Shown here in pieces: positions 11,828 to 42,040 of a stretch of DNA of 49,723 bases. Numbering within the stretch: position 1 is the stretch's first letter; each line of letters starts with the position of its first letter. Origin of the DNA: Propionivibrio sp. (GTDB taxonomy: Bacteria > Pseudomonadota > Gammaproteobacteria > Burkholderiales > Rhodocyclaceae); the NCBI RefSeq assembly GCF_016790145.1, contig NZ_JAEUOI010000103.1, forward strand, positions 1 to 49,723. The letters run 5' to 3'. The translations under genes were made by a program, and so were the position numbers. Below the pieces are notes generated by a model, which did no database searches, was not told the DNA's origin, and saw only the letters and a program-made list of their open reading frames with translations.

Positions 11828-11924
11828 TGCTGCTACCGATAAAAGCCCATACCATGCGTAAAACCATTATGAAGCAAATGACTCTAAACTAACGTGTGAT
11901 CTGTTTGATAAAAGCAAGGAATCC

Positions 11925-13676
11925 ATGAAACCCATTCGAAGCACCCTCTGTTTTGCCGCGCTGTCCATGGTCTTCAGCCTGCCGGTAGTGGCGGCTGATG
12001 GGGCGGCACCGGCCCGGAAACGTACGCCGGTAGTGCGTGAGGCCAAACGCCCGGCGTCCCCTGAACTACGGCCAGGCGATACGCAGTACGCAAATCAGCC
12101 CGGGCAGGTGATCTATCAGGTATTGCTGGCCGAAATCGCTCTGCAACGCGGTGATGCCAATCTGGCCAGCCAGGCTTACGCCGATCTCGCCTTGCGTACT
12201 CGTGATCCGCAAGTCCTGGAGCGGACAGTCGAAGTGGCGGGCTATGCCCGTCGCTTTGATCTGGCGCTTGAAGCGGCGCGCCTGTGGCTTGATGTTGAGC
12301 CCACGTCGAAACGCGCACAGCAAATGATGGTCAGTGTAATGATTCTTTCCAATCAGCTTGACGATCTGGCCCCCGGCCTGATTCGCATGCTTGAAGTCGA
12401 CAAGGAATCGCTCGCCGATAACCTCCTCGGGCTGAACCGAATGTTTGCCCGTAATCCGGATCGTCAAGCCGTTTTCCGACTGATCGACAAGGTCGCCAGG
12501 CCCTTTTTTGGTGTCGCTGAAGCGCATTACGCCGTGGCCCTGGCGGCGGCTTCGGCCGGGGTTAATGAACGTGCGCTGGCTGAGGTACGGCGGGCGCTCG
12601 AGTTGCGAGCGGATTGGGAAATGGCGGCCTTGTTGCAAGCGCAACTGCTGTCGCGTGAGTCGCCTGCTGAAGCAATCAGTTTCATGCAGGGCTTTGTCGA
12701 GCGCAACCCGAAAGCGTTTGACGTTCGCTTGTATCTGGCACGAGCGCTGATTGGCGAAAAGCGTTATGGCGAAGCCAGAATCCATTTCGATCAGTTGCTG
12801 GCGGCCTATCCTGAGCGAGCGGAAGTTCTTTATCCGGCTGCCATACTGGCGCTGCAACAGGACGACAGAATGCTTGCCGAAGCCCGCTTGAAGCTTCTGG
12901 TGACGCTGGATATTCCGGACAAGAGCCTCGCCTATTATTATCTTGGGCAGATAGCCGAAGAGGACAAACGCAGCGCCGAGGCGCTGTCCCATTACGCGCT
13001 GGTCGGTGCCGGCGAACATTACCTCCCGGCGCAATTGCGCAGCGCACAACTGCTGGCTGGTCAGGGGCAGCTTGACGCTGCACGCAAACAGCTCGCTAAA
13101 GCAAAGCCTGGAACGCCCGAAGAGCGAGTGCAACTGTTGATCGCCGAAGCCGGCTTGCTGCGTGAGGCCAGACAGACGCAAGCAGCGTTCGATCTGCTCG
13201 ATCAGGCGCTGGCCGTCCAGCCCGAGCAGCCCGAATTGCTCTATGAAAGTGCTCTGCTTGCTGAAAAACTCGGACGCCTGGACCTTCTCGAAAGCCGCTT
13301 GCGCAAGCTCATCGAATTGCGCCCGGAGAGTGCGCAGGCCTACAACGCCCTGGGATATTCCTATGCCGAGCGTAATCTTCGTCTGCTTGAAGCGCGTGAG
13401 TTGATTGAAAAGGCACTCAAGCTGGCGCCGGAGGATAGTTTCATTCTCGATAGCCTGGGCTGGGTGCTCTACCGGCAGGGTGATTTGCCCGGCGCTTTGG
13501 CCATCCTTGAACGAGCCTATGCAAAACGATCCGATCCCGAGATTGCGGCGCATCTGGGCGAAGTGCTGTGGGAACTCGGGCGCAAGGAGGAGGCGGGACG
13601 CATCTTGCGCGAGGCGCATCAGAAATTCCCAAGCAATGAGGCCTTGGCGGATGCGCTCAAGAAGTTCTCTCCCTGA
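11925..13676 (+). CDS. exported tetratricopeptide-repeat protein
   Basis: 583 residues: a signal peptide at about 1-24 (ending VVAADG), then almost entirely helical repeats. TPR-like units are clearest in the C-terminal half, for example around AYNALGYSYAERN, DSFILDSLGWVLYRQG and AHLGEVLWELGRKEEA. It probably acts as a periplasmic scaffold. A homologue at this position upstream of lolB-ispE is common in betaproteobacteria, which suggests a link to outer-membrane assembly, but that is inference. The start has a good AAGGA ribosome site. Confidence 0.88.
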   Translation: MKPIRSTLCFAALSMVFSLPVVAADGAAPARKRTPVVREAKRPASPELRPGDTQYANQPGQVIYQVLLAEIALQRGDANLASQAYADLALRTRDPQVLERTVEVAGYARRFDLALEAARLWLDVEPTSKRAQQMMVSVMILSNQLDDLAPGLIRMLEVDKESLADNLLGLNRMFARNPDRQAVFRLIDKVARPFFGVAEAHYAVALAAASAGVNERALAEVRRALELRADWEMAALLQAQLLSRESPAEAISFMQGFVERNPKAFDVRLYLARALIGEKRYGEARIHFDQLLAAYPERAEVLYPAAILALQQDDRMLAEARLKLLVTLDIPDKSLAYYYLGQIAEEDKRSAEALSHYALVGAGEHYLPAQLRSAQLLAGQGQLDAARKQLAKAKPGTPEERVQLLIAEAGLLREARQTQAAFDLLDQALAVQPEQPELLYESALLAEKLGRLDLLESRLRKLIELRPESAQAYNALGYSYAERNLRLLEARELIEKALKLAPEDSFILDSLGWVLYRQGDLPGALAILERAYAKRSDPEIAAHLGEVLWELGRKEEAGRILREAHQKFPSNEALADALKKFSP

Positions 13677-29969: not shown

Positions 29970-31052
29970 ATGCGCATGCCTGATATTGTGCCCAACCCCT
30001 TTGGCGGGCTGGATCTGCTGTCCTCGCCGGTCATTCTGCTTGACAAGAGTTTTGCCATCCGTTACATGAATTCCGCCGCAGAGAATCTGCTCGCCATCAG
30101 CAGCAGAGCCGCTGTCGGATGCCGCCTCGAAAGTGTCGTTGAATGCCCCCTTGCCTTCCAGGAAGCGCTCGATAATACCTTGACGCTGGGCTGGAGCTAC
30201 ACCGGGCAGAGCATCAAACTTGAACGTAGCGATGGCGTGGTCCTGCATCTGAACTGTACGGTCAGCCCGACCGATACTCTTGAGGCGCGTTTACTGGTCG
30301 AGCTGTGGCCGATCGATCAGCAGTTGAAAGCAACGCGCGAAGAGCGCCTGCTTGAACAGCAACTCGCCAGCCGCGAGTTGATCCGCAATCTGGCGCACGA
30401 AATAAAGAACCCGCTGGGTGGCATTCGCGGAGCGGCACAGTTGCTCGAACATGAACTCAACAACCCAGGCTTGCGCGAATATACGCAGGTCATCATCAAG
30501 GAAGCCGACCGCCTGCAGGAATTGATGAAGCGGTTGCTTTCGCCACATCGGCCGATGCAGCCGGGTCCGGTCAATATTCACGAAATACTTGAACGAGTGC
30601 GCAGCCTGCTGTCCGCTGAATTCCCGCAAACGCTCACGGTGATCCGCGATTACGATACCAGTTTGCCCGAGTTGGTGGGCGATCGCGAGCAACTGATTCA
30701 GGCCGTTCTCAATATCGCGCGCAATGCAGCGCAGGCCATCAAGGGGCAGTCGGACAGCGTGCCCGCAACAGGGCAGATCACGCTGCGCACCCGGGTCGAC
30801 CGGCAGGTCACGCTGGCCAAGCGGCGTTACCGTCTGGCACTTGAATTGCAAGTGATCGACAACGGCCCGGGCATACCTGACGATGTTCGTGAGCGCATGT
30901 TTTTTCCGCTGGTTTCCGGTCGCCAGGGAGGTAGCGGCCTCGGCCTGACGCTGGCCCAGAGCTTTGTTCAACAGCATCAGGGAACCGTCGAGTGCGAGAG
31001 TCGCCCGGGGTACACCTGCTTTACGATCCGGATGCCGCTGATTGCCGGGTGA
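29970..31052 (+). CDS. ntrB: nitrogen regulation sensor histidine kinase NtrB
   Basis: 360 residues, soluble. NtrB phosphorylates or dephosphorylates NtrC under control of PII. An N-terminal PAS domain (about 12-115) precedes the H-box NLAHEIKNPLGG (phospho-acceptor His143). The kinase domain shows the N box LNIARNAAQAI, the G1 box DNGPGIPD and the G2 box GGSGLGLT. There is no membrane segment, as expected. Unusually, it is separated from ntrC by 162 bases that include dispersed repeat R-B. Confidence 0.95.
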   Translation: MRMPDIVPNPFGGLDLLSSPVILLDKSFAIRYMNSAAENLLAISSRAAVGCRLESVVECPLAFQEALDNTLTLGWSYTGQSIKLERSDGVVLHLNCTVSPTDTLEARLLVELWPIDQQLKATREERLLEQQLASRELIRNLAHEIKNPLGGIRGAAQLLEHELNNPGLREYTQVIIKEADRLQELMKRLLSPHRPMQPGPVNIHEILERVRSLLSAEFPQTLTVIRDYDTSLPELVGDREQLIQAVLNIARNAAQAIKGQSDSVPATGQITLRTRVDRQVTLAKRRYRLALELQVIDNGPGIPDDVRERMFFPLVSGRQGGSGLGLTLAQSFVQQHQGTVECESRPGYTCFTIRMPLIAG

Positions 31053-31060
31053 TGGCAACT

Positions 31061-31130
31061 GCCTGCGAAGCGTAGCCGACTTATTGCGAAACGTCGGCTT
31101 ACGCTTCGCTAACCCGACCTGCCAGCTACC
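31061..31130. repeat. dispersed repeat R-B, copy 1 (between ntrB and ntrC)
   Basis: Repeated units of the TCGGGTTAGCG type: in reverse complement it reads GGCAGGTCGGGTTAGCG, AGCGTAAGCCGACGTTTCGC, then a second arm. It matches 42070-42150 in inverted orientation. The arms can pair, so the ntrB-ntrC message would carry a strong hairpin. Confidence 0.65.
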
Positions 31131-31214
31131 CATACTTTACTTTCTTGTATAGGTTGATAATGGCAAGCTATTTGCTAAAGGGTATTCATTCAATTCATGA
31201 AGTCTGGAAAATCA

Positions 31215-32639
31215 ATGAAACCGGTCTGGATCGTCGACGACGACAAGTCGATTCGCTGGGTACTGGAAAAGACCCTGGCCCGCGAGCAGATCCCCTTCAA
31301 GAGTTTTGCCTCGGCCAGCGAAGCCCTTTCGCAGCTTGATCTGGGCGTTGAGCCCCCGCAGGTGCTGGTATCGGACATTCGCATGCCGGGCGAGTCGGGC
31401 CTTGATCTGCTGAAACAGGTGAAGGAGCGTTTTCCTTCCCTGCCGGTCATCATCATGACCGCTTACTCGGATCTGGACAGCGCGGTCGCGGCCTTCCAGG
31501 GCGGCGCTTTCGAGTACATGCCCAAGCCCTTCGATGTCGATCAGGCGATGGAGTTGATTCGCCGCGCCATTGACGAGAGCTCGCACCAGGTCGGTGCGTC
31601 GGCAGAGATCGGTCTGGTACCAGAGATTCTCGGTCAGGCACCGGCCATGCAGGAAGTCTTTCGTGCCATAGGTCGCCTGAGTCAGTCGAACGCGACGGTG
31701 ATGATCACCGGCGAATCGGGTTCGGGCAAGGAACTGGTGGCACGTGCCGTGCATCGGCACAGTCTTCGTTCCGACAAGCCGTTCATTGCCATCAATACGG
31801 CAGCAATCCCCAGGGATCTGCTTGAATCCGAGCTTTTCGGCCATGAGCGCGGTGCCTTTACCGGCGCCGCTACGCAGCGGCGCGGTCGTTTCGAGCAGGC
31901 TGAGGGGGGCACGCTCTTCCTCGACGAGATCGGTGACATGCCTCCCGAATTGCAGACACGCCTGCTGCGCGTCCTTTCCGACGGTAACTACTATCGCGTT
32001 GGCGGCCATTCACCGATCAAGGCCAATGTCCGCATCATCGCCGCCACGCATCAAAACCTTGAGACGCGGGTCAAGGAAGGCCTGTTTCGCGAGGATCTGT
32101 TTCATCGGCTCAACGTTATTCGCCTGCGTTTGCCGAGCTTGCGCGAGCGCGGTGAGGATATCCCGATCCTGGCGCGTCATTTTCTTCAGAAGAGCGCGCA
32201 CGATCTGGGGGTCGAGGCCAAGCGGTTTTCCGATGCGGCGCTCAGTCATCTGGCATCTCTTGATTTTCCGGGCAACGTGCGTCAGCTGGAAAACATCTGC
32301 CACTGGCTTACCGTGATGGCGCCGGGGCAGCAGGTTGATCTAGCCGATCTGCCTGCAGAACTGCGTGATTCGACACAGGTTTCCTTGGGCGTCGACTGGG
32401 AGAGCGCGCTGGCACAAGAGGTTGACCGCTTGCTGGCGGGCGATGACGGCAAGGTTCACGATAAACTGACCAACAGTTTTGAGCGTGTCCTGATTACCCG
32501 TGCGCTGGCCCATACCGGGGGGCGGCGGATCGAGGCGGCGCTGGCCCTGGGCATTGGCCGCAACACCATCACGCGCAAGATCCAGGAACTGGGCCTCGGC
32601 GCCGGGCGCAGCAACGATGCGGAGCATGCGCCGGAATAA
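31215..32639 (+). CDS. ntrC: nitrogen regulation response regulator NtrC
   Basis: 474 residues. NtrC is the sigma-54 activator for nitrogen-limitation genes. The receiver domain has D10, phospho-acceptor D54 and K104. The AAA+ domain has GESGSGKE (166-173), the sigma-54 contact loop GAFTGA (213-218) and DEIGD (237-241). A Fis-type helix-turn-helix ends the protein (EAALALGIGRNTITRKIQEL). I use the ATG at 31215, with GGAAA upstream; an ATG at 31197 adds six residues. It should act at the NtrC-like sites in front of glnA. Confidence 0.96.
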   Translation: MKPVWIVDDDKSIRWVLEKTLAREQIPFKSFASASEALSQLDLGVEPPQVLVSDIRMPGESGLDLLKQVKERFPSLPVIIMTAYSDLDSAVAAFQGGAFEYMPKPFDVDQAMELIRRAIDESSHQVGASAEIGLVPEILGQAPAMQEVFRAIGRLSQSNATVMITGESGSGKELVARAVHRHSLRSDKPFIAINTAAIPRDLLESELFGHERGAFTGAATQRRGRFEQAEGGTLFLDEIGDMPPELQTRLLRVLSDGNYYRVGGHSPIKANVRIIAATHQNLETRVKEGLFREDLFHRLNVIRLRLPSLRERGEDIPILARHFLQKSAHDLGVEAKRFSDAALSHLASLDFPGNVRQLENICHWLTVMAPGQQVDLADLPAELRDSTQVSLGVDWESALAQEVDRLLAGDDGKVHDKLTNSFERVLITRALAHTGGRRIEAALALGIGRNTITRKIQELGLGAGRSNDAEHAPE

Positions 32640-34282: not shown

Positions 34283-34687
34283 ATGTTGCCTAAAATGTTG
34301 TCCCTGCTGCCTGCTTTTTTGTCCTACTTCGCAGTAGCCGTGGCCTTGCTTGCCGTATTTTATCTGGTTTATGTCAACGTCACGCCGTATGACGAAATGG
34401 CCTTGATCCGGCAGGGCAACACGGCGGCGGCGGTGAGCCTCTCCGGCGCCCTGATCGGGTTTGCCATGCCGGTTGCCAACGTCATTGCCCATAGTGATAC
34501 GCTGGCCGATCTTGCCGCCTGGGGAGCGATTGCCGGCGTCATACAGATCCTGACGTACCTGGTGGCGCGCTTTGCACTGCCGCATATGACCCAGGATATT
34601 CCCGCCGGCAAAGTGGCGCCGGCAACCTTTCTTGCCGGTCTTTCGCTTACCGTTGGCTTGACCAATGCGGCCTGCATGACTTATTGA
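34283..34687 (+). CDS. DUF350-family (YjfL-like) membrane protein
   Basis: 134 residues with four hydrophobic segments (about 9-31, 48-70, 78-100, 114-131). Two DUF350 units are recognisable, with polar TPYDEMALIRQGNTAAAVSLSG between the first two helices. DUF350 proteins recur in operons with SPFH proteins, polyamine-type synthases and SpeD; their function is unknown. GGAG lies seven bases before the ATG. It is the first gene of a co-directional cluster that runs to 42040. Confidence 0.85.
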   Translation: MLPKMLSLLPAFLSYFAVAVALLAVFYLVYVNVTPYDEMALIRQGNTAAAVSLSGALIGFAMPVANVIAHSDTLADLAAWGAIAGVIQILTYLVARFALPHMTQDIPAGKVAPATFLAGLSLTVGLTNAACMTY

Positions 34688-34714
34688 CCGGCAGATGCTG
34701 TTGCAAGGGCTTCA

Positions 34715-34811
34715 AACACGGAGAGCACAGAGAGTACAAAGAACACATAGAAAAAGGGGCTCACCGTGAGTTGGCGTTCTAGAAACAGTCCCGGTGTTCT
34801 CTTGTGTCAAG
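34715..34811. repeat. dispersed repeat R-C, copy 2
   Basis: Arms built from CACGGAGAGCACAGAGAG-type heptamers at 34717-34750 and GGTGTTCTCTTGTGTCAAG at 34793-34811 can pair. It is related in design to the elements at 1835 and 39833. It separates the DUF350 and SPFH genes. Confidence 0.5.
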
Positions 34812-34858
34812 TGATGTATTCAGAATTCATACGGTAGCATTCCTTTAGGGAGATCGAC

Positions 34859-35911
34859 ATGGCACTCATGGATTTCATCAAGAAACAGTTTATCGACGTC
34901 ATTCAATGGACAGAGGAAAGCGATGGCGTACTGGCCTACCGCTACCCGATGCAGGACTTCGAAATCCAGAACGGCGCCCAATTGACGGTGCGCGATTCGC
35001 AGATGGCGGTGTTCGTCAACGAAGGCCAAGTGGCCGACGTCTTCGCCCCCGGACTGCACAAGCTGACGACCCAGACGCTTCCGGTCCTGACCAACCTGAA
35101 AAACTGGGACAAGCTGTTCGCCTCGCCCTTCAAGTCCGACGTCTATTTCTTCTCGACCCGCCTGCAACTCGACCGCAAGTGGGGAACGCCGAATCCGATC
35201 ACTATCCGCGACAAGGACTTCGGCATGGTGCGGATGCGTGCCTTCGGCATCTATTCGTACAAGCTCACCGATCCGGGCAGGTTCTACAAGGAAATCTCCG
35301 GAACGCGCGAGCAGTACGGCGTTGACGATCTTGACGGCCAGTTGCGCAGTCTGGTGATCGGCACCATGACCGACCTGTTCGGCGACTCGGGCGTTCCTTT
35401 CATCGACATGGCGGCCAATCAGGAAGCACTGAGCGAAGCGTTGAAATGGAAGATGAAAACGGTGTTCGAGCGCTATGGCCTTGAACTCGACAGTTTCGTC
35501 GTGCAGAACGTCTCGTTGCCGGAAGAGTTGCAGAAGATCCTCGATACCAAGATCGGCATGAACATGATCGGCGACATGGGGCGCTTTACCCAGTATCAGG
35601 TGGCTAACAGCATTCCGCTGGCGGCGCAGAACGAAGGCGGGTTGGCTGGCATCGGTGCCGGTCTGGGCGCTGGCTTGAGCATCGGGCAAGGCATGGCGCA
35701 GGCCATGACGCAAGCCATGCAGCCGGGCGCGGCACCCGCCGCAGCGGCCTTCGCACCTGCTCCTGCACCGGCCACTGCGGCTGCGCCACCCGTCAGTGCC
35801 GATGAGGTGGTCTCTACGCTGGAGAAGTTGCACGGACTGGTGGCCAAGGGCATCCTTTCGCAAGCCGAATTCGATACCAAGAAAGCCGAGTTGCTGGGCA
35901 AGCTGGGCTGA
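34859..35911 (+). CDS. SPFH-domain protein with C-terminal SHOCT domain (YdjI-like)
   Basis: 350 residues. An SPFH/band-7-like region spans about 25-240 (VFVNEGQVADVFAPGLHKL, RAFGIYSYKLTDPGRFYKEI). It is followed by a Gly/Ala/Met-rich linker (GAGLGAGLSIGQGMAQAM), a Pro/Ala stretch and a C-terminal SHOCT domain (EVVSTLEKLHGLVAKGILSQ, then AEFDTKKAELL). No transmembrane helix is obvious, so membrane association would be indirect or via the N-terminus. These proteins form oligomeric scaffolds. Clustering with DUF350 and DUF4178 genes is typical of this subgroup. A GGGAG ribosome site precedes the ATG. Confidence 0.87.
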   Translation: MALMDFIKKQFIDVIQWTEESDGVLAYRYPMQDFEIQNGAQLTVRDSQMAVFVNEGQVADVFAPGLHKLTTQTLPVLTNLKNWDKLFASPFKSDVYFFSTRLQLDRKWGTPNPITIRDKDFGMVRMRAFGIYSYKLTDPGRFYKEISGTREQYGVDDLDGQLRSLVIGTMTDLFGDSGVPFIDMAANQEALSEALKWKMKTVFERYGLELDSFVVQNVSLPEELQKILDTKIGMNMIGDMGRFTQYQVANSIPLAAQNEGGLAGIGAGLGAGLSIGQGMAQAMTQAMQPGAAPAAAAFAPAPAPATAAAPPVSADEVVSTLEKLHGLVAKGILSQAEFDTKKAELLGKLG

Positions 35912-35943
35912 AACGACAGCTTTTCAACCCACTCCGGCCTTCC

Positions 35944-37890
35944 GTGAAAACCGCCAACTGTCCTTCCTGCGGCGCTCCGGTCGGCTTCCGCTCGGCGGCC
36001 TCGGTTTATGCCGTGTGCGAGTTCTGTCGCAGCACTCTGCTGCGTGATGGCGAGGATCTGAAAAACCTCGGGCGCATGGCCGATCTGATGGACGACCCGA
36101 CGCTGATCCAGATCGGCAGTGAGGGAAGCTACCGCGGGCTGCACTTTGTCGTCATCGGGCGTATCCAGCTCAGGCACGAGTCGGGCCTCTGGAACGAGTG
36201 GCACATCCTCTTCGACGACGCGCGCAGCGCGTGGCTATCGGAGGCGGGAGGCGAATACGTGGTCAGTTCGCTGGTGCCGGTGACTGAAACACTGCCGGCA
36301 TTCGAAACGCTGGCACCGGAAATGCAGATCAGCGTTGCCGGACGCCCCTTTACCGTCACCGATCTCGAATCGGCGCGCTGCATCTCCGGGCAGGGCGAAC
36401 TGCCGTTCAGGGTCGAGGCCGGCTACGACGTCAACACCGCCGACCTGAGAAGCAGCGACCGCTTTGTCACCATCGACTACAGCGAAACGCCGCCACTGGT
36501 TTTTGTCGGCTATCCGGTGACCTTCGACGAACTCAAGCTCAGCCATCTCAAGGATTCCGCTGCGGCGACGGCGGGCGGCACGCCAAGTGTCAAGGCCCGT
36601 GCTTTCAACTGCCCGCATTGCGCGTCGCCGCTCAGTGTGCACTCCGGCGCCATTGAAAGCGTCGCCTGTGACAGTTGCGGCTCGATCATCGGCATCGACA
36701 ACGAGAACGTGCAATTGCTGGCGCGCGCCGCGCAGTCGATGCGCATCGAGCCGTGGTTGCCGCTCGGCAGCAAGGGCAAGCTGCACGACATCGAGTGGGA
36801 AGCCATCGGTTTCCTGCGTCGCAGTACGCAATCGGGTGGCATAGACTTCGCGTGGTCCGAATACCTGCTGTTCAACGCCGAACAGGGCTTTGCCTGGCTG
36901 ACGGAATATCAGGGGCACTGGAACTTTGCACGTACCCTGTCCAGTCCGCCGCCGGTCAGTCGCGGGCAGGCTTCATTCAAGCGCAAGGACGGTGAGTTCA
37001 AGCTGTTCAATTCTGGCAAGGCGGAAGTCGTCTACGTCGTCGGCGAATTCTACTGGCGTGTCGCCGTTGGCGAATCGTGCCTGGTCGAGGACTACATCTG
37101 TCCGCCGCTGATGCTCTCGCGCGAGGTGACTGACAAGGAAGCCAGTTGGTCGCTGAGCGAGTATCTGGAGCCGGAAGATCTGTGTGCCGCGTTCAAGATC
37201 AGCTTTACGCCGCCGGCACGGATCGGCGTCTTTGCCAACCAGCCCAACCCGCTGAGCGAACGGCATCGCGGTGTATGCCGGCTGTTCTGGAAGCTGGCGC
37301 TGGCGGCAACGCTGGTGCAACTGGCTTTCGTTTTCATATTCTCCTCGCATCTTGTCCTCAAACAGCAGGTGGTTCTTTCGCCGCACAATGAGGACGCGAC
37401 GCTGACCACGCAGGAATTTACCCTGCAAAGCCGGGCGCGAACGCTGCGCGTGCGTCACAGCACCGACGTCGATAACAACTGGGTCGATATCACCACCACA
37501 CTGGTCGAGAAAAAAACCGGAGAAGCCTATCAGGGCGCGCAGGAAGTCAGCTATTACCGGGGTGTCGATGATGGCGAAAGCTGGTCGGAAGGAACCAGGG
37601 ACGATGCCATCGCCTTCAGGGACGTCCCGCCCGGAAACTACTACCTGACCATCGAGTACGAACTGGGCAAGGACAGGCGGGCCGCCGTGTTCGATACGAT
37701 TGAAGTCGTACGCAATCCGGTGACCTGGTCCAACTATGTGCTCCTGATGATCTTTCTTGTCGTTTTCCCGCTCTATTCACGCTGGCGGCGCAATGCCTTC
37801 GAAGCGCGACGCTGGAACGAAAGCGATCTCGGCGGGGGTGATGAAAGCGAGATTGATTTTGGTGACTCGGGAAGCGATGGGGACGATTAG
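35944..37890 (+). CDS. DUF4178 protein with two zinc ribbons and C-terminal membrane segments
   Basis: 648 residues from a GTG start. A zinc ribbon opens the protein (CPSC at 6-9, CEFC at 25-28) and is followed by a DUF4178 domain. A second ribbon (CPHC...CDSC, about 222-242) is followed by a second DUF4178 domain, so the first 430 residues look like a tandem duplication. A membrane helix lies at about 447-466, then an exposed beta-rich domain of about 130 residues, then a second helix near 598-616 and an acidic tail ending in aspartates. Function unknown. The ribbons suggest cytoplasmic binding to a partner or nucleic acid. The stop abuts the next ATG. Confidence 0.85.
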   Translation: MKTANCPSCGAPVGFRSAASVYAVCEFCRSTLLRDGEDLKNLGRMADLMDDPTLIQIGSEGSYRGLHFVVIGRIQLRHESGLWNEWHILFDDARSAWLSEAGGEYVVSSLVPVTETLPAFETLAPEMQISVAGRPFTVTDLESARCISGQGELPFRVEAGYDVNTADLRSSDRFVTIDYSETPPLVFVGYPVTFDELKLSHLKDSAAATAGGTPSVKARAFNCPHCASPLSVHSGAIESVACDSCGSIIGIDNENVQLLARAAQSMRIEPWLPLGSKGKLHDIEWEAIGFLRRSTQSGGIDFAWSEYLLFNAEQGFAWLTEYQGHWNFARTLSSPPPVSRGQASFKRKDGEFKLFNSGKAEVVYVVGEFYWRVAVGESCLVEDYICPPLMLSREVTDKEASWSLSEYLEPEDLCAAFKISFTPPARIGVFANQPNPLSERHRGVCRLFWKLALAATLVQLAFVFIFSSHLVLKQQVVLSPHNEDATLTTQEFTLQSRARTLRVRHSTDVDNNWVDITTTLVEKKTGEAYQGAQEVSYYRGVDDGESWSEGTRDDAIAFRDVPPGNYYLTIEYELGKDRRAAVFDTIEVVRNPVTWSNYVLLMIFLVVFPLYSRWRRNAFEARRWNESDLGGGDESEIDFGDSGSDGDD

Positions 37891-38037
37891 ATGATCAAGA
37901 CCAACCTCGTCATCGGGCTGCTTGCGCTGGCTTTCTTTACCCACGCCCAGTATCAGGGCTGGAACCTCTTCGAGCAAAGTGCCGCCGCACAGACTTCGCG
38001 GCTTTCAGGGAGCTCAAGCCGGGCGTATCACAAGTAA
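37891..38037 (+). CDS. 48-residue small membrane or secreted protein
   Basis: The ATG follows the DUF4178 stop with no gap. The product has a short basic start (MIKTN), one hydrophobic helix (LVIGLLALAFF), then HAQYQGWNLFEQ and a Ser/Ala-rich tail ending AYHK. It could be a single-pass small subunit or a cleaved peptide. Direct coupling to the upstream gene and clean composition argue that it is real. I do not know a named family for it. Confidence 0.65.
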   Translation: MIKTNLVIGLLALAFFTHAQYQGWNLFEQSAAAQTSRLSGSSSRAYHK

Positions 38038-38177
38038 GTCCAGCATTTTATGTGCCGTGGGTGTGCCAGAAAAATCTGATTGGCATATAAAAAACAACGA
38101 TTGAAGATCCCTGAATGAACCTGAAAACCTTAGTTAAGCGCGACGAATTGGCCGCAACAACAAGGTTGGCCAGTTTT

Positions 38178-38257
38178 TGGCCCTCACCCCATCCCTCTCC
38201 CGCAGGGAGAGGGGGTTTGCACCCTTCTCCCTGCGGGAGAAGGGCTGGGGATGAGGG
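38178..38257. repeat. dispersed repeat R-A, copy 2 (complete)
   Basis: The 80-base element reads CCCTCACCCCATCCCTCTCC, CGCAGGGAGAGGGGGTTTGC, ACCCTTCTCCCTGCGGGAGA, AGGGCTGGGGATGAGGGC. Outer ends (CCCTCACCCC / GGGGATGAGGG) and inner blocks are palindromic. Copy 1 at 139-197 lacks the last 20 bases of this form. The rest of this gap (38038-38177) shows nothing I recognise. Confidence 0.75.
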
Positions 38258-38296
38258 CTTACGATATTGGCAGCACGCCATATTGCGGTTTTAAGG

Positions 38297-39796
38297 ATGA
38301 ATCAGGCTCTCCTCTTTTCCGTCTTCATCATCGCTTCCTGCGGCCTGGCTTACGAGCTGATCGCCGGTGCGCTGTCGAGCTATCTGCTTGGCGATTCGAT
38401 CACCCAGTTTTCCACCGTCATCGGCACCTACCTGTTCGCCATGGGCATCGGTTCGTGGCTGTCGCGCTATGTCGAGCGCAATCTGGTGGCACGTTTTGTT
38501 CAGATCGAGCTGATGGTCGGCGTGCTCGGCGGGTTTTCTGCGGCGGCGCTTTTCTTCATTTTCGTCTGGTTCACGACGCCTTTCCAGGTGGCGCTGTATC
38601 TCGCGGTATTCGGCATCGGTGTGCTGGTCGGGCTGGAAATACCGCTCATCATGCGTATTCTCAAGCGCGACCTGAGCTTCAAAGATCTCGTTTCGCAGGT
38701 GCTCACCTTCGACTATCTTGGCGCGCTCGCCGTCTCCATCCTCTTTCCCTTGCTGCTGGTGCCACAGCTCGGGCTGGTACGCAGCGGCCTGCTCTTCGGC
38801 CTGCTCAACGTGTTGGTAGCACTATGGGCGCTGTGGATTTTCCGCGAGCAACTGCGCAATACCTTCTGGCTGAAGACGCAGGCCTTTGTCTCGCTTGGCG
38901 TACTGGCTATCGGCTTTGCCGCTGCCGGCCAGTTCACCTCGCTGGCCGAGGCGCACCTCTATGCCGACGAGATCGTGTACAACGAAACCTCGCCCTACCA
39001 GCACATCGTGATTACCCGCTGGAAGGACGATCTGCGCCTGTTTCTGAACAACAACCTGCAATTCAGTTCGCGCGACGAATACCGCTACCACGAGGCTTTG
39101 GTGCATCCGGGTTTGTCTACGCTGCCCGTAGCGCGACGCGTGCTGGTGCTCGGTGGTGGCGACGGCCTGGCCGTGCGCGAGATTTTGAAGTATCCGCAGG
39201 TCGAGTCAATAACGCTGGTCGACCTCGACCCGGCGATGACACAGCTTTTCTCGACGGCCGCTGCGCTACGCAAGCTTAACGAGGATGCGCTGCATTCGCC
39301 AAAGGTCAAAGTGATCAACGCCGACGCCCTGAAATGGCTGGAAGACAACGCGGAACTTTTCGACTTCGTGGTGGTGGATTTCCCCGACCCCTCCAACTTC
39401 GCCATCGGCAAACTCTACAGCGCGGCCTTCTATCGTCTGCTTGAAAAGCACCTGACGGCGGGTGCGCTGGCCGTCATCCAATCCACCTCACCGCTCTACG
39501 CCCGGCAATCGTTCTGGTGCGTCGTCAGCACACTGGAGAGCGTGGGTTTCGTTACCACGCCCTATCATGCGCTGGTGCCGTCTTTTGGCGAATGGGGCTT
39601 CGTGCTGGCCGGTCGCCGTGCCTATCGGCCCCCCGCCAGCTATGCCGTTGCAACACGCTTCCTGACGCCTGAAGCCACCCCGGCGCTGTTCCAGTTTCCC
39701 AAGGACATGGCGCGTGTCGATGCCGAAGTCAACCGGCTCAACAACCAGGTGCTGGTGCGCTACTTCGAAAGCGAGTGGCGGCAGGTCATCCGCTGA
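38297..39796 (+). CDS. membrane-anchored spermidine synthase-like aminopropyltransferase
   Basis: 499 residues in two parts. The first 212 residues hold seven predicted membrane helices (about 3-27, 38-56, 68-92, 97-117, 137-155, 163-183, 193-212). The rest is a spermidine synthase fold: YQHIVITRW (234-242), LFLNNNLQFSSRDEYRYHEA, the cofactor loop LGGGDG (285-290) and DFPDP (361-365) at the catalytic DxxDP position. It should bind decarboxylated AdoMet, made by SpeD encoded in the same cluster, and transfer an aminopropyl group to an acceptor near the membrane. The acceptor is unknown. The ATG at 38297 has AAGG unusually close; an earlier start at 38267 adds ten residues. Confidence 0.88.
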   Translation: MNQALLFSVFIIASCGLAYELIAGALSSYLLGDSITQFSTVIGTYLFAMGIGSWLSRYVERNLVARFVQIELMVGVLGGFSAAALFFIFVWFTTPFQVALYLAVFGIGVLVGLEIPLIMRILKRDLSFKDLVSQVLTFDYLGALAVSILFPLLLVPQLGLVRSGLLFGLLNVLVALWALWIFREQLRNTFWLKTQAFVSLGVLAIGFAAAGQFTSLAEAHLYADEIVYNETSPYQHIVITRWKDDLRLFLNNNLQFSSRDEYRYHEALVHPGLSTLPVARRVLVLGGGDGLAVREILKYPQVESITLVDLDPAMTQLFSTAAALRKLNEDALHSPKVKVINADALKWLEDNAELFDFVVVDFPDPSNFAIGKLYSAAFYRLLEKHLTAGALAVIQSTSPLYARQSFWCVVSTLESVGFVTTPYHALVPSFGEWGFVLAGRRAYRPPASYAVATRFLTPEATPALFQFPKDMARVDAEVNRLNNQVLVRYFESEWRQVIR

Positions 39797-39832
39797 ACCA
39801 GGGCGACTATGAATTTTAAAATCTACCTCTTT

Positions 39833-39930
39833 CGACGCAGAGTACGCAGAGACGCAGAGCGCGCCGAGAAAATCGTTGGTGTAACAGAATCTTTCCCTTC
39901 TCTGCGTCTCTGCGATCTCTGCGTTGAGAG
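39833..39930. repeat. dispersed repeat R-C, copy 3
   Basis: GACGCAGAGTACGCAGAGAC at 39834-39853 and the complementary CTCTGCGTCTCTGCGATCTC at 39899-39918 make long pairing arms built from CGCAGAG heptamers, with about 45 bases between. It is the clearest of the three R-C copies and lies between the aminopropyltransferase and amine-oxidase-like genes. Confidence 0.65.
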
Positions 39931-40001
39931 CGTTTTGTCCTGGTTTTTCACACCCTGCCAATTTTGCTTCGCGGGCCTGCGACCGAGTTGTATGCCACGC
40001 A

Positions 40002-41639
40002 ATGGATAGACGCGATTTCCTCGCTTCGCTGGCCGCCGCCGGTCTGGCGTCGCTGACCGGGTGCGACGCGCCGGCCAGTATCCCCTTGCCGCCAGGCGAA
40101 CTGCTCGGCACGGCACTGGAAACCGGTCACCGTCTGCGCCAAAGCAATCTGCCGCCAGCGTCTGAAACCCGGCGCGTTCCGGTGCTCATTGTCGGTGCCG
40201 GCATCGGCGGACTGTCAGCCGGATGGAAACTTGCCAAAGCGGGCTTCAATGATTTCCTGATGGTCGAACTGGAAGCCGGGCCGGGAGGAAATTCCCGGGC
40301 CGGCCGCAACGAAGTCAGTGCTTACCCGCTCGCCGCGCATTACCTTCCATTGCCGACGCTTGAGGCTACTGCGGTGCGCGAGTTGCTGGCCGAACTCGGC
40401 GTCCTGCACGGCGATGCGCGTGCCGCACGCCCGATCTATGACGAACGCTACCTCTGCGCCATGCCGCAGGAGCGCTTGTACCGCAACGGCTGGTGGCAGG
40501 ATGGCGTCCTGCCGCAGAACGGCGTGAGTGCTGCAGAGCGCGAACAGTACCGGCGCTTTTATGTCCTGATGGATGCCTTCAAGCAGCGACGCGATGGTCA
40601 ACAGCGCGCCTTTGCCCTGCCCATGGAACTCTCCAGCCGCGCTCCCGACCTGCTGGCGCTCGACCGGCTCACCCTACGCGACTGGCTGCTGGCGCAAGGT
40701 CTGGATTCGCCACACCTGCACTGGTACGTCGACTATGCCTGCCGCGACGATTACGGAACGGGCAGCGCCGAAGTATCGGCGTGGGCCGGCATCCACTACT
40801 TTGCTTGCCGCAACGGCGAAGCGCAGGACGCGGCGAGCGACACCGTGCTCACCACGCCGGGCGGCAATGGCTGGCTGGCGGAAGGCCTGGCGCAAGGCAT
40901 CAAGGCACGCGCCGGTGATCGCCTGCTGGGCGGGACGCTGGCTTTCCGCGTTGCCGAAGTGGACGGGCAGATGCACGTCGACCTTTGGCGGCCGGCAGAA
41001 CAGCGCACACTGCGCGTGATCGCAGAGCAACTGATCTGGGCGGCGCCGCTCTTTCTCGTGCCTCATGTCCTTGTCGGGAACGACTCGCTGAAGGCCGCCG
41101 CCCGCCGCTATTCCCACGCCCCCTGGCTGGTCGCCAACCTGACGCTCTCGCGCTTTCCGGGGGAAAGAGCCGGCAGCGCAATGGCCTGGGACAATGTGCT
41201 TTACGACAGCCCCGGTCTGGGCTACGTTGTGGCTACGCACCAGCAGATGCGCATGCGTCCGGGCGCCACCGTGTTCACCTACTACCGTGCGCTGGCCGGC
41301 ATGTCACCGCAACAGGGCAGGGCGGCCTTGCAGGACACCTCACGCGAGGCCTGGGCCGAGCAGATTCTTGCCGAACTCGAACGGCCGCATCCCGACATCC
41401 GGCAGGTGACAACGCGCCTCGATATCTTCCGCAACGCGCACGCCATGGCGCGCCCGCTACCGGGGCTGATCTGGGGTGACGCACGCCGGATGTTTGCCGC
41501 CGATGGCGCGCGCCTGCGCTTTGCCCACGCCGACGTCAGCGGCTTCTCGCTGTTCGAGGAAGCGCAGTATCGCGGGGTACTGGCGGCAGAAAGAACGCTG
41601 CGCCGAATGGGCAAAAACTTTGTAACTTCGCTAAGCTGA
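40002..41639 (+). CDS. Tat-type lipoprotein, FAD-dependent amine-oxidase-like protein
   Basis: 545 residues. The N-terminus MDRRDFLASLAAAGLASLTGC combines a twin-arginine motif (RRDFL) with a lipobox (LTGC, Cys21), so it is probably folded with its cofactor, exported by Tat and lipid-anchored. Next comes the FAD-binding VLIVGAGIGGLSAGWKLAKA (GAGIGG at 65-70) with an acidic residue ending the second strand (VELEAGPGGNS). The rest fits the flavin amine oxidase/NAD(P)-binding Rossmann group. Context with SpeD and an aminopropyltransferase suggests oxidation of a polyamine or aminopropylated product. The start is the ATG at 40002; earlier in-frame codons lie in repeat R-C. Confidence 0.82.
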   Translation: MDRRDFLASLAAAGLASLTGCDAPASIPLPPGELLGTALETGHRLRQSNLPPASETRRVPVLIVGAGIGGLSAGWKLAKAGFNDFLMVELEAGPGGNSRAGRNEVSAYPLAAHYLPLPTLEATAVRELLAELGVLHGDARAARPIYDERYLCAMPQERLYRNGWWQDGVLPQNGVSAAEREQYRRFYVLMDAFKQRRDGQQRAFALPMELSSRAPDLLALDRLTLRDWLLAQGLDSPHLHWYVDYACRDDYGTGSAEVSAWAGIHYFACRNGEAQDAASDTVLTTPGGNGWLAEGLAQGIKARAGDRLLGGTLAFRVAEVDGQMHVDLWRPAEQRTLRVIAEQLIWAAPLFLVPHVLVGNDSLKAAARRYSHAPWLVANLTLSRFPGERAGSAMAWDNVLYDSPGLGYVVATHQQMRMRPGATVFTYYRALAGMSPQQGRAALQDTSREAWAEQILAELERPHPDIRQVTTRLDIFRNAHAMARPLPGLIWGDARRMFAADGARLRFAHADVSGFSLFEEAQYRGVLAAERTLRRMGKNFVTSLS

Positions 41640-41650
41640 GAACAACTGAA

Positions 41651-42040
41651 ATGAATGGTCTGCACCTCATCGCCGAACTCCATGACTGTCGCTGCGAGCC
41701 ACGCCTGCTGCGCAGCGTCGACGCGCTGCGCGAACTGTGTCTGGCGGTGTGCATGGCACCCGGCCTGACGCCGGTCGGGCAGATCTTCCATCAGTTCGGT
41801 AGCGACGCGGAACCGGCCGGCGCCACCGGCGCGGTGATTCTCGCCGAATCGCATCTGGCAGTGCATACCTGGCCAGAACTGAACGCCGTCACGCTCGACC
41901 TCTACGTCTGCAACTTCAGTCAGGACAACAGCATCGCCGCGCGTGCCGCCTGCGGGCAACTGATCGCCGCCTTCGCCCCGAAGCGGGTGGAGAGACGCGA
42001 GGTCGAGCGCGGAACGTGCTCGAAAACACCCGCGACTTGA
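41651..42040 (+). CDS. speD: S-adenosylmethionine decarboxylase proenzyme
   Basis: 129 residues, prokaryotic class 1B type. The proenzyme cleaves itself at Glu66-Ser67 in LAESHLAVHTWPE, turning Ser67 into the pyruvoyl cofactor. His72 and Cys87 (DLYVCNF) correspond to the His and Cys needed for processing and catalysis (T. maritima Ser63, His68, Cys83, all offset by four). It supplies decarboxylated AdoMet, the aminopropyl donor. It starts 12 bases after the flavoprotein stop and is the last gene of the cluster. The extra C-terminal tail is basic. Confidence 0.9.
   Translation: MNGLHLIAELHDCRCEPRLLRSVDALRELCLAVCMAPGLTPVGQIFHQFGSDAEPAGATGAVILAESHLAVHTWPELNAVTLDLYVCNFSQDNSIAARAACGQLIAAFAPKRVERREVERGTCSKTPAT

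Follow-up and report, generated by a model that had tools for sequence, protein, structure and literature searches.

The window analysed here is the 49,723-nucleotide contig NZ_JAEUOI010000103.1 of Propionivibrio sp. (assembly GCF_016790145.1; genome of 4.05 Mb, completeness 99.82%). Between positions 34283 and 42040 it carries a cluster in which enzymes of polyamine chemistry stand beside small membrane proteins, and one of these proteins, only 48 amino acids (aa) long, ends in a conserved lysine that may be the residue on which the enzymes act. The gene neighbourhood has already been published; the C-terminal lysine tail of the small protein is new here. Neither a description of this tail nor a match for aminopropyl-lysine was found in the literature searched.

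A first-pass annotation, made from the sequence alone, had described seven co-directional genes, and open reading frames (ORFs) together with Pfam searches agree with it, save that the frame and coordinates of the smallest gene and the start of the flavoprotein gene (40002) had to be corrected. All seven lie on the forward strand. The first (34283–34687) encodes a small membrane protein of 134 aa from the DUF350 (YjfL) family (PF03994, E = 2.7e-37). It is followed by an SPFH/Band_7_1 protein of 350 aa with a C-terminal SHOCT domain (34859–35911; PF13421, E = 9.6e-79; PF09851, E = 2.1e-7) and, from a GTG start, by a protein with two DUF4178 stretches (35944–37890; PF13785, E = 6e-31), in which CxxC pairs and two C-terminal hydrophobic segments can be seen by eye. 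Immediately after its stop codon comes the ATG of the small membrane-anchored tail protein (37891–38037), the candidate acceptor, which ends in SSSRAYHK; an ORF at 37922, in the wrong frame, was rejected as the small-protein gene. The remaining three genes encode a membrane aminopropyltransferase (38297–39796), whose ORF opens with a TTG at 38267 (509 aa) and whose likely start is the ATG at 38297, a lipoprotein of the twin-arginine (Tat) type with a flavin amine-oxidase fold (40002–41639), and the 129-aa S-adenosylmethionine (AdoMet) decarboxylase SpeD (41651–42040; PF02675, E = 2.6e-27; TIGR03330).

Relatives were collected in two ways. The first set comprises 88 stretches, namely the best 80 loci of one scan of named genomes and eight from a class sample; they were examined with profiles made from the window proteins, and many end at contig breaks. 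The second is a separate, evenly drawn sample of 299 Pseudomonadota genomes (298 in some searches), of which 32 encode the synthase; its gene-content counts refer to 30 fetched neighbourhoods among these 32. The cluster was found in records named Beta- and Gammaproteobacteria, Acidobacteria, Gemmatimonadota, Verrucomicrobia and Fibrobacteres, and in one metagenome-assembled genome of Vampirovibrio. DUF350 was present in 72 stretches of the first set, SPFH in 62, DUF4178 in 73, the flavoprotein in 68 and SpeD in 54; the corresponding counts in the Pseudomonadota neighbourhoods were 23, 7, 18, 9 and 14. By Pfam, DUF4178 occurs in 20 of 298 Pseudomonadota genomes (19 above the cut-off), and all 20 are among the 32 synthase genomes; beyond the Pseudomonadota it was also found in the control Corynebacterium glutamicum. 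The linkage of the cluster families, which the first-pass annotation had expected to be conserved, is far above chance and extends over several phyla. DUF350 and DUF4178 (or PspA, see below) accompany the synthase more steadily than the flavoprotein and SPFH do: the SPFH protein, which the same annotation had counted as part of the cluster, is present in the window but in few of the Pseudomonadota stretches.

The arrangement of the genes varies. Some loci share the order seen in the window; in most loci of Acidobacteria and Gemmatimonadota, SpeD comes after SPFH, and a DUF350 protein of two-helix length precedes the synthase; in Massilia, Cupriavidus and their relatives, the cluster is divided into two divergent units. 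Many relatives among loci L057–L123 have, ahead of the synthase gene and after that of the small protein or DUF4178, a short DUF350 form (about 70 aa, ending in AAA[IV]H(G)); in the window, the 134-aa form is the first gene of the operon. The nearest named relatives of the synthase come from Candidatus Propionivibrio (89%), a beta proteobacterium (88%) and Accumulibacter (83%).

The small protein consists of one membrane helix, a short tail and a terminal lysine. Small proteins of this kind, tried in batches of two, five and one, had no match in Pfam or NCBIfam, and neither had the window protein. A profile search gave 28 homologues, all of which end in lysine (18 in HK and 10 in GK). In a second pass over 83 loci, candidates were chosen by their position after DUF4178, their length and their hydrophobicity, with the last residue ignored; the composition and hydrophobicity thresholds were fixed after the loci had been viewed, but not on the last residue, and the loci represent 82 distinct proteins, L036 and L052 being one protein that was counted from two collections. 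All 56 standalone tail proteins of this pass end in lysine (32 HK, 22 GK and 2 IK). L140 and L141, from one genus, end in RIK and are the sole departures from HK or GK at the penultimate position. In some relatives, the C-terminus of the DUF4178 protein itself bears a helix and a GGGHK-type tail; 24 loci were called as such fusions. The tail closes with HK in 22 of them (one example is SSGGSYGGYSSGGGHK); the other two, L059 and L106, actually have standalone proteins, with the ends YHK and GGK, and the three unassigned loci are also lysine-ended (profile matches ending in GGK in L074 and L105, a protein ending in TGK in L076).

A lysine ending is not a trait of all proteins of the cluster, an explanation that was rejected on a control count: the last residue is lysine in 0 of 69 SPFH proteins, 0 of 95 DUF350 proteins, 2 of 118 synthases, 1 of 71 flavoproteins and 1 of 67 SpeD proteins, or 4 of 420 in total. 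Nor is the small gene a chance ORF, since distant phyla have homologues of it in the same place, after DUF4178 and before the synthase. Nonsynonymous divergence (dN) was lower than synonymous divergence (dS) in the five usable pairs of seven, dS being saturated in the other two. The charge bias of the standalone proteins is weak, with 1.2 Lys/Arg before the helix vs. 0.8 in the next 12 residues. In the Pseudomonadota sample, a lysine tail was found in 30 of the 32 synthase genomes, a count that was not blind to the last residue: 25 lie in fetched neighbourhoods (22 recognized by a filter and 3 by eye), two are those of the window genome and of G139, and three, outside the fetched neighbourhoods, were recovered by family or sequence search. 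No tail was found in G299 (L136), where the contig ends inside the cluster, or in G143 (L155), where the synthase match is partial (positions 248–423 only).

The same kind of tail is also borne by lipoproteins. In five of six further class-sample loci (L038, L039, L040, L042 and L043), a neighbouring protein has a Ser/Gly/Arg-rich tail that ends in lysine (SRGK, GGGK, RRGK, FRGK or KSGK), and a lipobox was recognized by eye in four of the five, with none in L040. PspA is encoded near the tail in L039, L040, L042 and L043, the four loci that its confirmation by Pfam covers. The lipoprotein does not adjoin the other genes in the sixth class-sample locus (G056), nor in G188 or G193. When the lipoprotein of G177 was used as a query, homologues were found in all seven genomes asked, and all six besides the query end in GK. 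Similarly, the DUF4178 protein missing from the neighbourhood of G342 was located about 10 kb away and ends in SGGGHK. The tail lipoproteins tried, one in a first search and two in another, had no Pfam or NCBIfam match. In L038, a GNAT acetyltransferase gene (11857–12687, reverse strand) directly adjoins the tail lipoprotein and synthase of genome G001; the tail amine is a possible substrate of this acetyltransferase as well.

The synthase scores 695.9 bits with NCBIfam NF002956 (PRK03612; cut-off 472), a family named polyamine aminopropyltransferase, and its residues 272–446 match Pfam Spermine_synth (E = 6.8e-36). Its structure model (predicted local distance difference test, pLDDT, 91.0; predicted template modelling score, pTM, 0.70) has seven long helices followed by a spermidine synthase domain, the fusion that the first-pass annotation had read from the sequence. 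All 50 Foldseek matches listed are aminopropyltransferases; they cover the spermidine synthase domain, and among them there is no known transporter fold for the membrane part. When the C-terminal 295 residues of the synthases are aligned with 20 soluble proteins including Escherichia coli SpeE, so that the N-terminal segment is left aside, the family keeps the equivalents of SpeE Q33, D59, Y63, H64, E65, D88, D110, D140, D158, D161 and Q191, which we take to serve donor binding and catalysis. Unlike soluble SpeE, the window-type enzyme has seven transmembrane helices before the domain, an inserted K382 (99% conserved; numbering of the 509-aa ORF) that directly follows the catalytic loop, and, ahead of the conserved Trp, a loop shortened by two residues; P373, between the two loop aspartates, is also family-specific. 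The donor and catalytic residues match those of soluble aminopropyltransferases and the acceptor side differs, so far as an alignment can tell, and the enzyme is a putative aminopropyltransferase on this basis. At a guess, K382 might bind the peptide carboxylate. The helices contain the conserved acidic residues E30, E81, E124 and D149.

In 89 synthases, the loops after helices 2, 4 and 6 together carry about 9 Lys/Arg (summed by hand), vs. about 2 in the loops after helices 1, 3 and 5. This distribution predicts that the N-terminus lies inside and the spermidine synthase domain outside, and the lipoprotein-borne tails and the Tat flavoprotein should also be outside, judging by their signals. 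With the domain outside, the seven-helix part would have to pass decarboxylated AdoMet (dcAdoMet); this passage and the periplasmic placement are the least secure part of the model.

As for the supply of dcAdoMet, the catalytic motif of SpeD, ESH..HTWPE, is intact when aligned with the solved AdoMet decarboxylases 2iii and 1tlu, as the first-pass annotation had stated, and a TIGR03330 score of 81.2 bits (cut-off 75.65) places the protein in class 1b of these enzymes. It is the single SpeD of the window genome. In addition to the synthase, this genome has three Spermine_synth matches of 27–45 bits and no match over the TIGR00417 speE cut-off. SpeD (PF02675) occurs in 26 of the 32 synthase genomes vs. 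44 of the 266 others, and the six synthase genomes without it remained so on a repeat search. Three of these six have a class 2 AdoMet decarboxylase (PF01536), which as a replacement would keep up the supply of dcAdoMet there. The TIGR00417 cut-off is exceeded in one of 31 synthase genomes (G143 lying outside this search), and three more have a sizeable extra spermidine synthase match, of 215, 199 and 148 bits. The frames that hold the two stronger ones are as long as those of SpeD; in G218 (C1:3827656–3828891) and G331 (C50:2711–3928), SpeD and spermidine synthase were found in equal-length frames (448 and 451 aa), which look like SpeD–spermidine synthase fusions separate from the cluster.

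The N-terminus of the flavoprotein, MDRRDFLASLAAAGLASLTGC, combines a twin-arginine signal and a lipobox, as recognized by eye. By sequence, it matches only general FAD/NAD-binding families (NAD_binding_8, E = 6.3e-10; the Pfam TAT signal was below the cut-off). Its model (pLDDT 94.8) is nearest in Foldseek to monoamine oxidases (MAO), putrescine oxidase and spermidine dehydrogenase, at 14–18% identity. This supports an amine oxidase fold of the MAO/polyamine oxidase (PAO) kind for this putative oxidase, and the first-pass description of an exported, amine-oxidase-like flavoprotein stands.

Other features of the locus lie between or upstream of these genes. An inverted repeat with 22-nt arms (38193–38243) separates the small gene from the synthase gene, and a second, with 31-nt arms of the CGCAGAG type (39829–39930), lies in the gap on the other side of the synthase gene; both may be mobile repeat elements or terminators. 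Upstream of the cluster (29970–32639), Pfam identifies an NtrB/NtrC-like histidine kinase and a sigma-54-activating response regulator. The related bac operon of Pseudomonas aeruginosa seems to depend on sigma-54 (PMC10948618).

A sister system is found in E. coli, whose yjfIJKLMC operon has DUF350 and a PspA relative in common with the cluster. YjfC is annotated in RefSeq as a peptide–spermidine ligase and matches Pfam GSP_synth; the paper on its activity is reportedly that of Pederick et al. of 2023. YgiC is described as being without glutathionylspermidine synthase activity in passages of PMC12506659. A protein substrate of YjfC or YgiC was not found named in the literature searched. The neighbouring YjfM, a DUF1190 protein, ends in SSARGHWGG. 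In the Pseudomonadota sample, DUF1190 occurs in 39 of 298 genomes; the best 30 of its proteins (L172–L201) end in GG (27), GS (2) or GT (1), and a YjfC relative lies within a stretch of about 3.5 kb in 26 of these 30 loci. No YjfC relative was found in 118 synthase loci, and the synthase (32 genomes) and DUF1190 (39) share no genome of about 298, where about four would be expected if they were independent, without correction for kinship. Likewise, the window genome (G000) has no DUF1190 match, and none of the seven cluster proteins of the window matches an ATP-grasp family in Pfam.

Both systems have DUF350, in E. coli and some synthase loci PspA, and a protein with a Ser/Gly-rich tail beside a polyamine-conjugating enzyme. 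They differ in the enzyme, which in the YjfC/YgiC–DUF1190 system is an ATP-grasp-type ligase and not an aminopropyltransferase, and in the tail, which ends in GG and not in lysine. A ligase joins a carboxylate to spermidine and is accordingly paired with a terminal glycine, whereas an aminopropyltransferase, which needs an amine acceptor, is paired with a terminal lysine. The linkage of DUF1190 to YjfC strengthens this pairing of end residue and enzyme, and the GG tails are candidate substrates of the peptide–spermidine ligases.

Polyamine-type chains on protein lysines are known from hypusine and deoxyhypusine and from the lysine polyamines of silaffins, which involve other enzymes and other donors, and not the C-terminal lysine of a bacterial membrane tail. 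The combination of AdoMet decarboxylase with a membrane spermidine synthase fusion, apparently the same enzyme pair, is said to have been described by Li et al. in Biochemical Journal in 2019, under a title that speaks of a polyamine-independent role. We know of no substrate for this pair, and propose the tail here. Closest to the present cluster are the operons of a seven-transmembrane spermidine synthase with DUF350, DUF4178 and a lipoprotein described in passages of Ravi et al. (2024; PMC11237479), which cite Li et al. and treat, under the ATP-grasp group, a variant with band-7, two transmembrane helices and SHOCT, DUF350, AdoMet decarboxylase and polyamine oxidase. Of these components, band-7/SHOCT, DUF350, AdoMet decarboxylase and an amine oxidase fold, to which the comparison was confined, are present in the window, and an ATP-grasp match is missing from its seven cluster proteins; the cluster is a possible member of this variant. 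That such groupings recur with an unknown product, as stated in the first-pass annotation, is in print (Ravi et al., 2024). Section 19 and the text passages of PMC11237479 contain no mention of the lysine tail, the standalone small protein or the pairing of end residue and enzyme.

We propose that the cluster builds a polyamine-type group on the tail protein, by a chemistry and in a topology that we infer, and we regard this proposal as evenly poised between right and wrong. SpeD, judged from its family assignment and intact motif, would decarboxylate AdoMet to dcAdoMet in the cytosol. The seven-helix synthase would then transfer the 3-aminopropyl group of dcAdoMet to an amine, presumably the epsilon-amine of the tail's C-terminal lysine, the side chain of which resembles putrescine; this would yield N-epsilon-(3-aminopropyl)lysine or something longer. 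Transfer is probably periplasmic, given the charge distribution of the synthase, and the seven-helix part may carry dcAdoMet across the membrane. In the lineages that have it, the flavoprotein might remove (trim) or oxidise the group. DUF350, with DUF4178 or PspA and often with SPFH, would form a membrane scaffold, and the link to PspA may point to envelope stress. The first-pass annotation had suggested aminopropylation of a membrane or peptide substrate followed by oxidation; aminopropylation of a peptide is the most likely reading, but oxidation becomes an accessory step.

Several observations weigh against the proposal. A C-terminal lysine has other uses, for instance peptidoglycan attachment in Braun's lipoprotein (Lpp), and dcAdoMet export is, to our knowledge, without precedent. 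YjfC needs ATP and must therefore act in the cytosol; if the sister tails are modified there, the periplasmic placement would be either unshared or wrong. The filter that gave the Pseudomonadota tail count itself required a lysine ending, and it overlooked L134, L140 and L141, whose ends (THK, RIK and RIK) were found by eye, as was that of L076; the blind counts are those of the positional second pass and of the homologue search with the G177 lipoprotein. G174 and G193 (99 and 100% complete) and G304 (71% complete) have neither SpeD nor a class 2 AdoMet decarboxylase, which is either evidence against a strict need for it or a detection limit. The flavoprotein falls from 68 of 88 stretches in the first set to 9 of 30 Pseudomonadota neighbourhoods and so cannot be essential to the scheme; the lower shares of flavoprotein and SPFH weaken the accessory step only. 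Finally, the window genome has no candidate spermidine route besides the cluster. The first-pass annotation had named a sole spermidine route, with free spermidine as its sole product, as something that would speak against its suggestion; the product side aside, the first half holds here, as the cluster has the genome's only SpeD and only strong spermidine synthase-like gene.

This last observation belongs with a different account, in which the synthase makes, and perhaps exports, free spermidine or a relative, the flavoprotein oxidises polyamines in the periplasm and the lysine tail plays a structural or regulatory side role. We consider it unlikely, though deserving of real weight: the synthase keeps the donor and catalytic residues, its NCBIfam family bears the name polyamine aminopropyltransferase, and the fold of the flavoprotein is near those of putrescine oxidase and spermidine dehydrogenase. 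However, free polyamine synthesis leaves unexplained why a C-terminal lysine should recur on three kinds of anchor, and in 4 of 31 synthase genomes there is another sizeable spermidine synthase match, either of soluble type or in what looks like a SpeD fusion. A role of AdoMet decarboxylase that is independent of polyamines is also stated in the title of Li et al. (2019). We retain the ordinary spermidine operon as a rival, without favouring it.

Two other accounts assign the lysine to another partner or the aminopropyl group to another acceptor. The C-terminal lysine of Lpp is linked to peptidoglycan, and the lipoprotein or membrane anchor, the flexible Ser/Gly tail and the terminal lysine of the present proteins resemble it; L,D-transpeptidases might use the tail lysine to fix the complex to peptidoglycan, while the polyamine enzymes would act on a different substrate or prevent this linkage. 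Such a tether is rather improbable, as the tail's steady companions are an aminopropyltransferase and, mostly, a genomic AdoMet decarboxylase, and the GG tails of DUF1190 beside a ligase fit polyamine conjugation and not tethering. Quite improbable, too, is a synthase whose acceptor is an amine of the membrane, for instance an aminolipid, with the tail only docking or sensing the product. The membrane embedding of the synthase, the conserved acidic residues in its helices and an acceptor side unlike that of soluble SpeE would suit a lipid or other small amine, but such an acceptor gives no reason for the tail's terminal lysine or for its GG counterpart in the ligase system. Modification of the tail lysine by the synthase is the reading that we carry forward. 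The wider picture, namely a new extracytoplasmic aminopropylation system with a dcAdoMet-moving synthase, an eraser in some lineages and a two-chemistry scheme shared with YjfC/YgiC–DUF1190, is tentative and, as a whole, rather doubtful.

In the Pseudomonadota sample, most synthase genomes have an AdoMet decarboxylase and no ordinary spermidine synthase over the cut-off, and the presence of a tiny, conserved substrate candidate within the operon makes the question of the product accessible to mass spectrometry. If the proposal is true, it would add a protein modification that is, as far as we know, undescribed, would suggest a logic common with the YjfC/YgiC ligases of E. coli, and would tie polyamine chemistry to the PspA/SPFH machinery of envelope stress.

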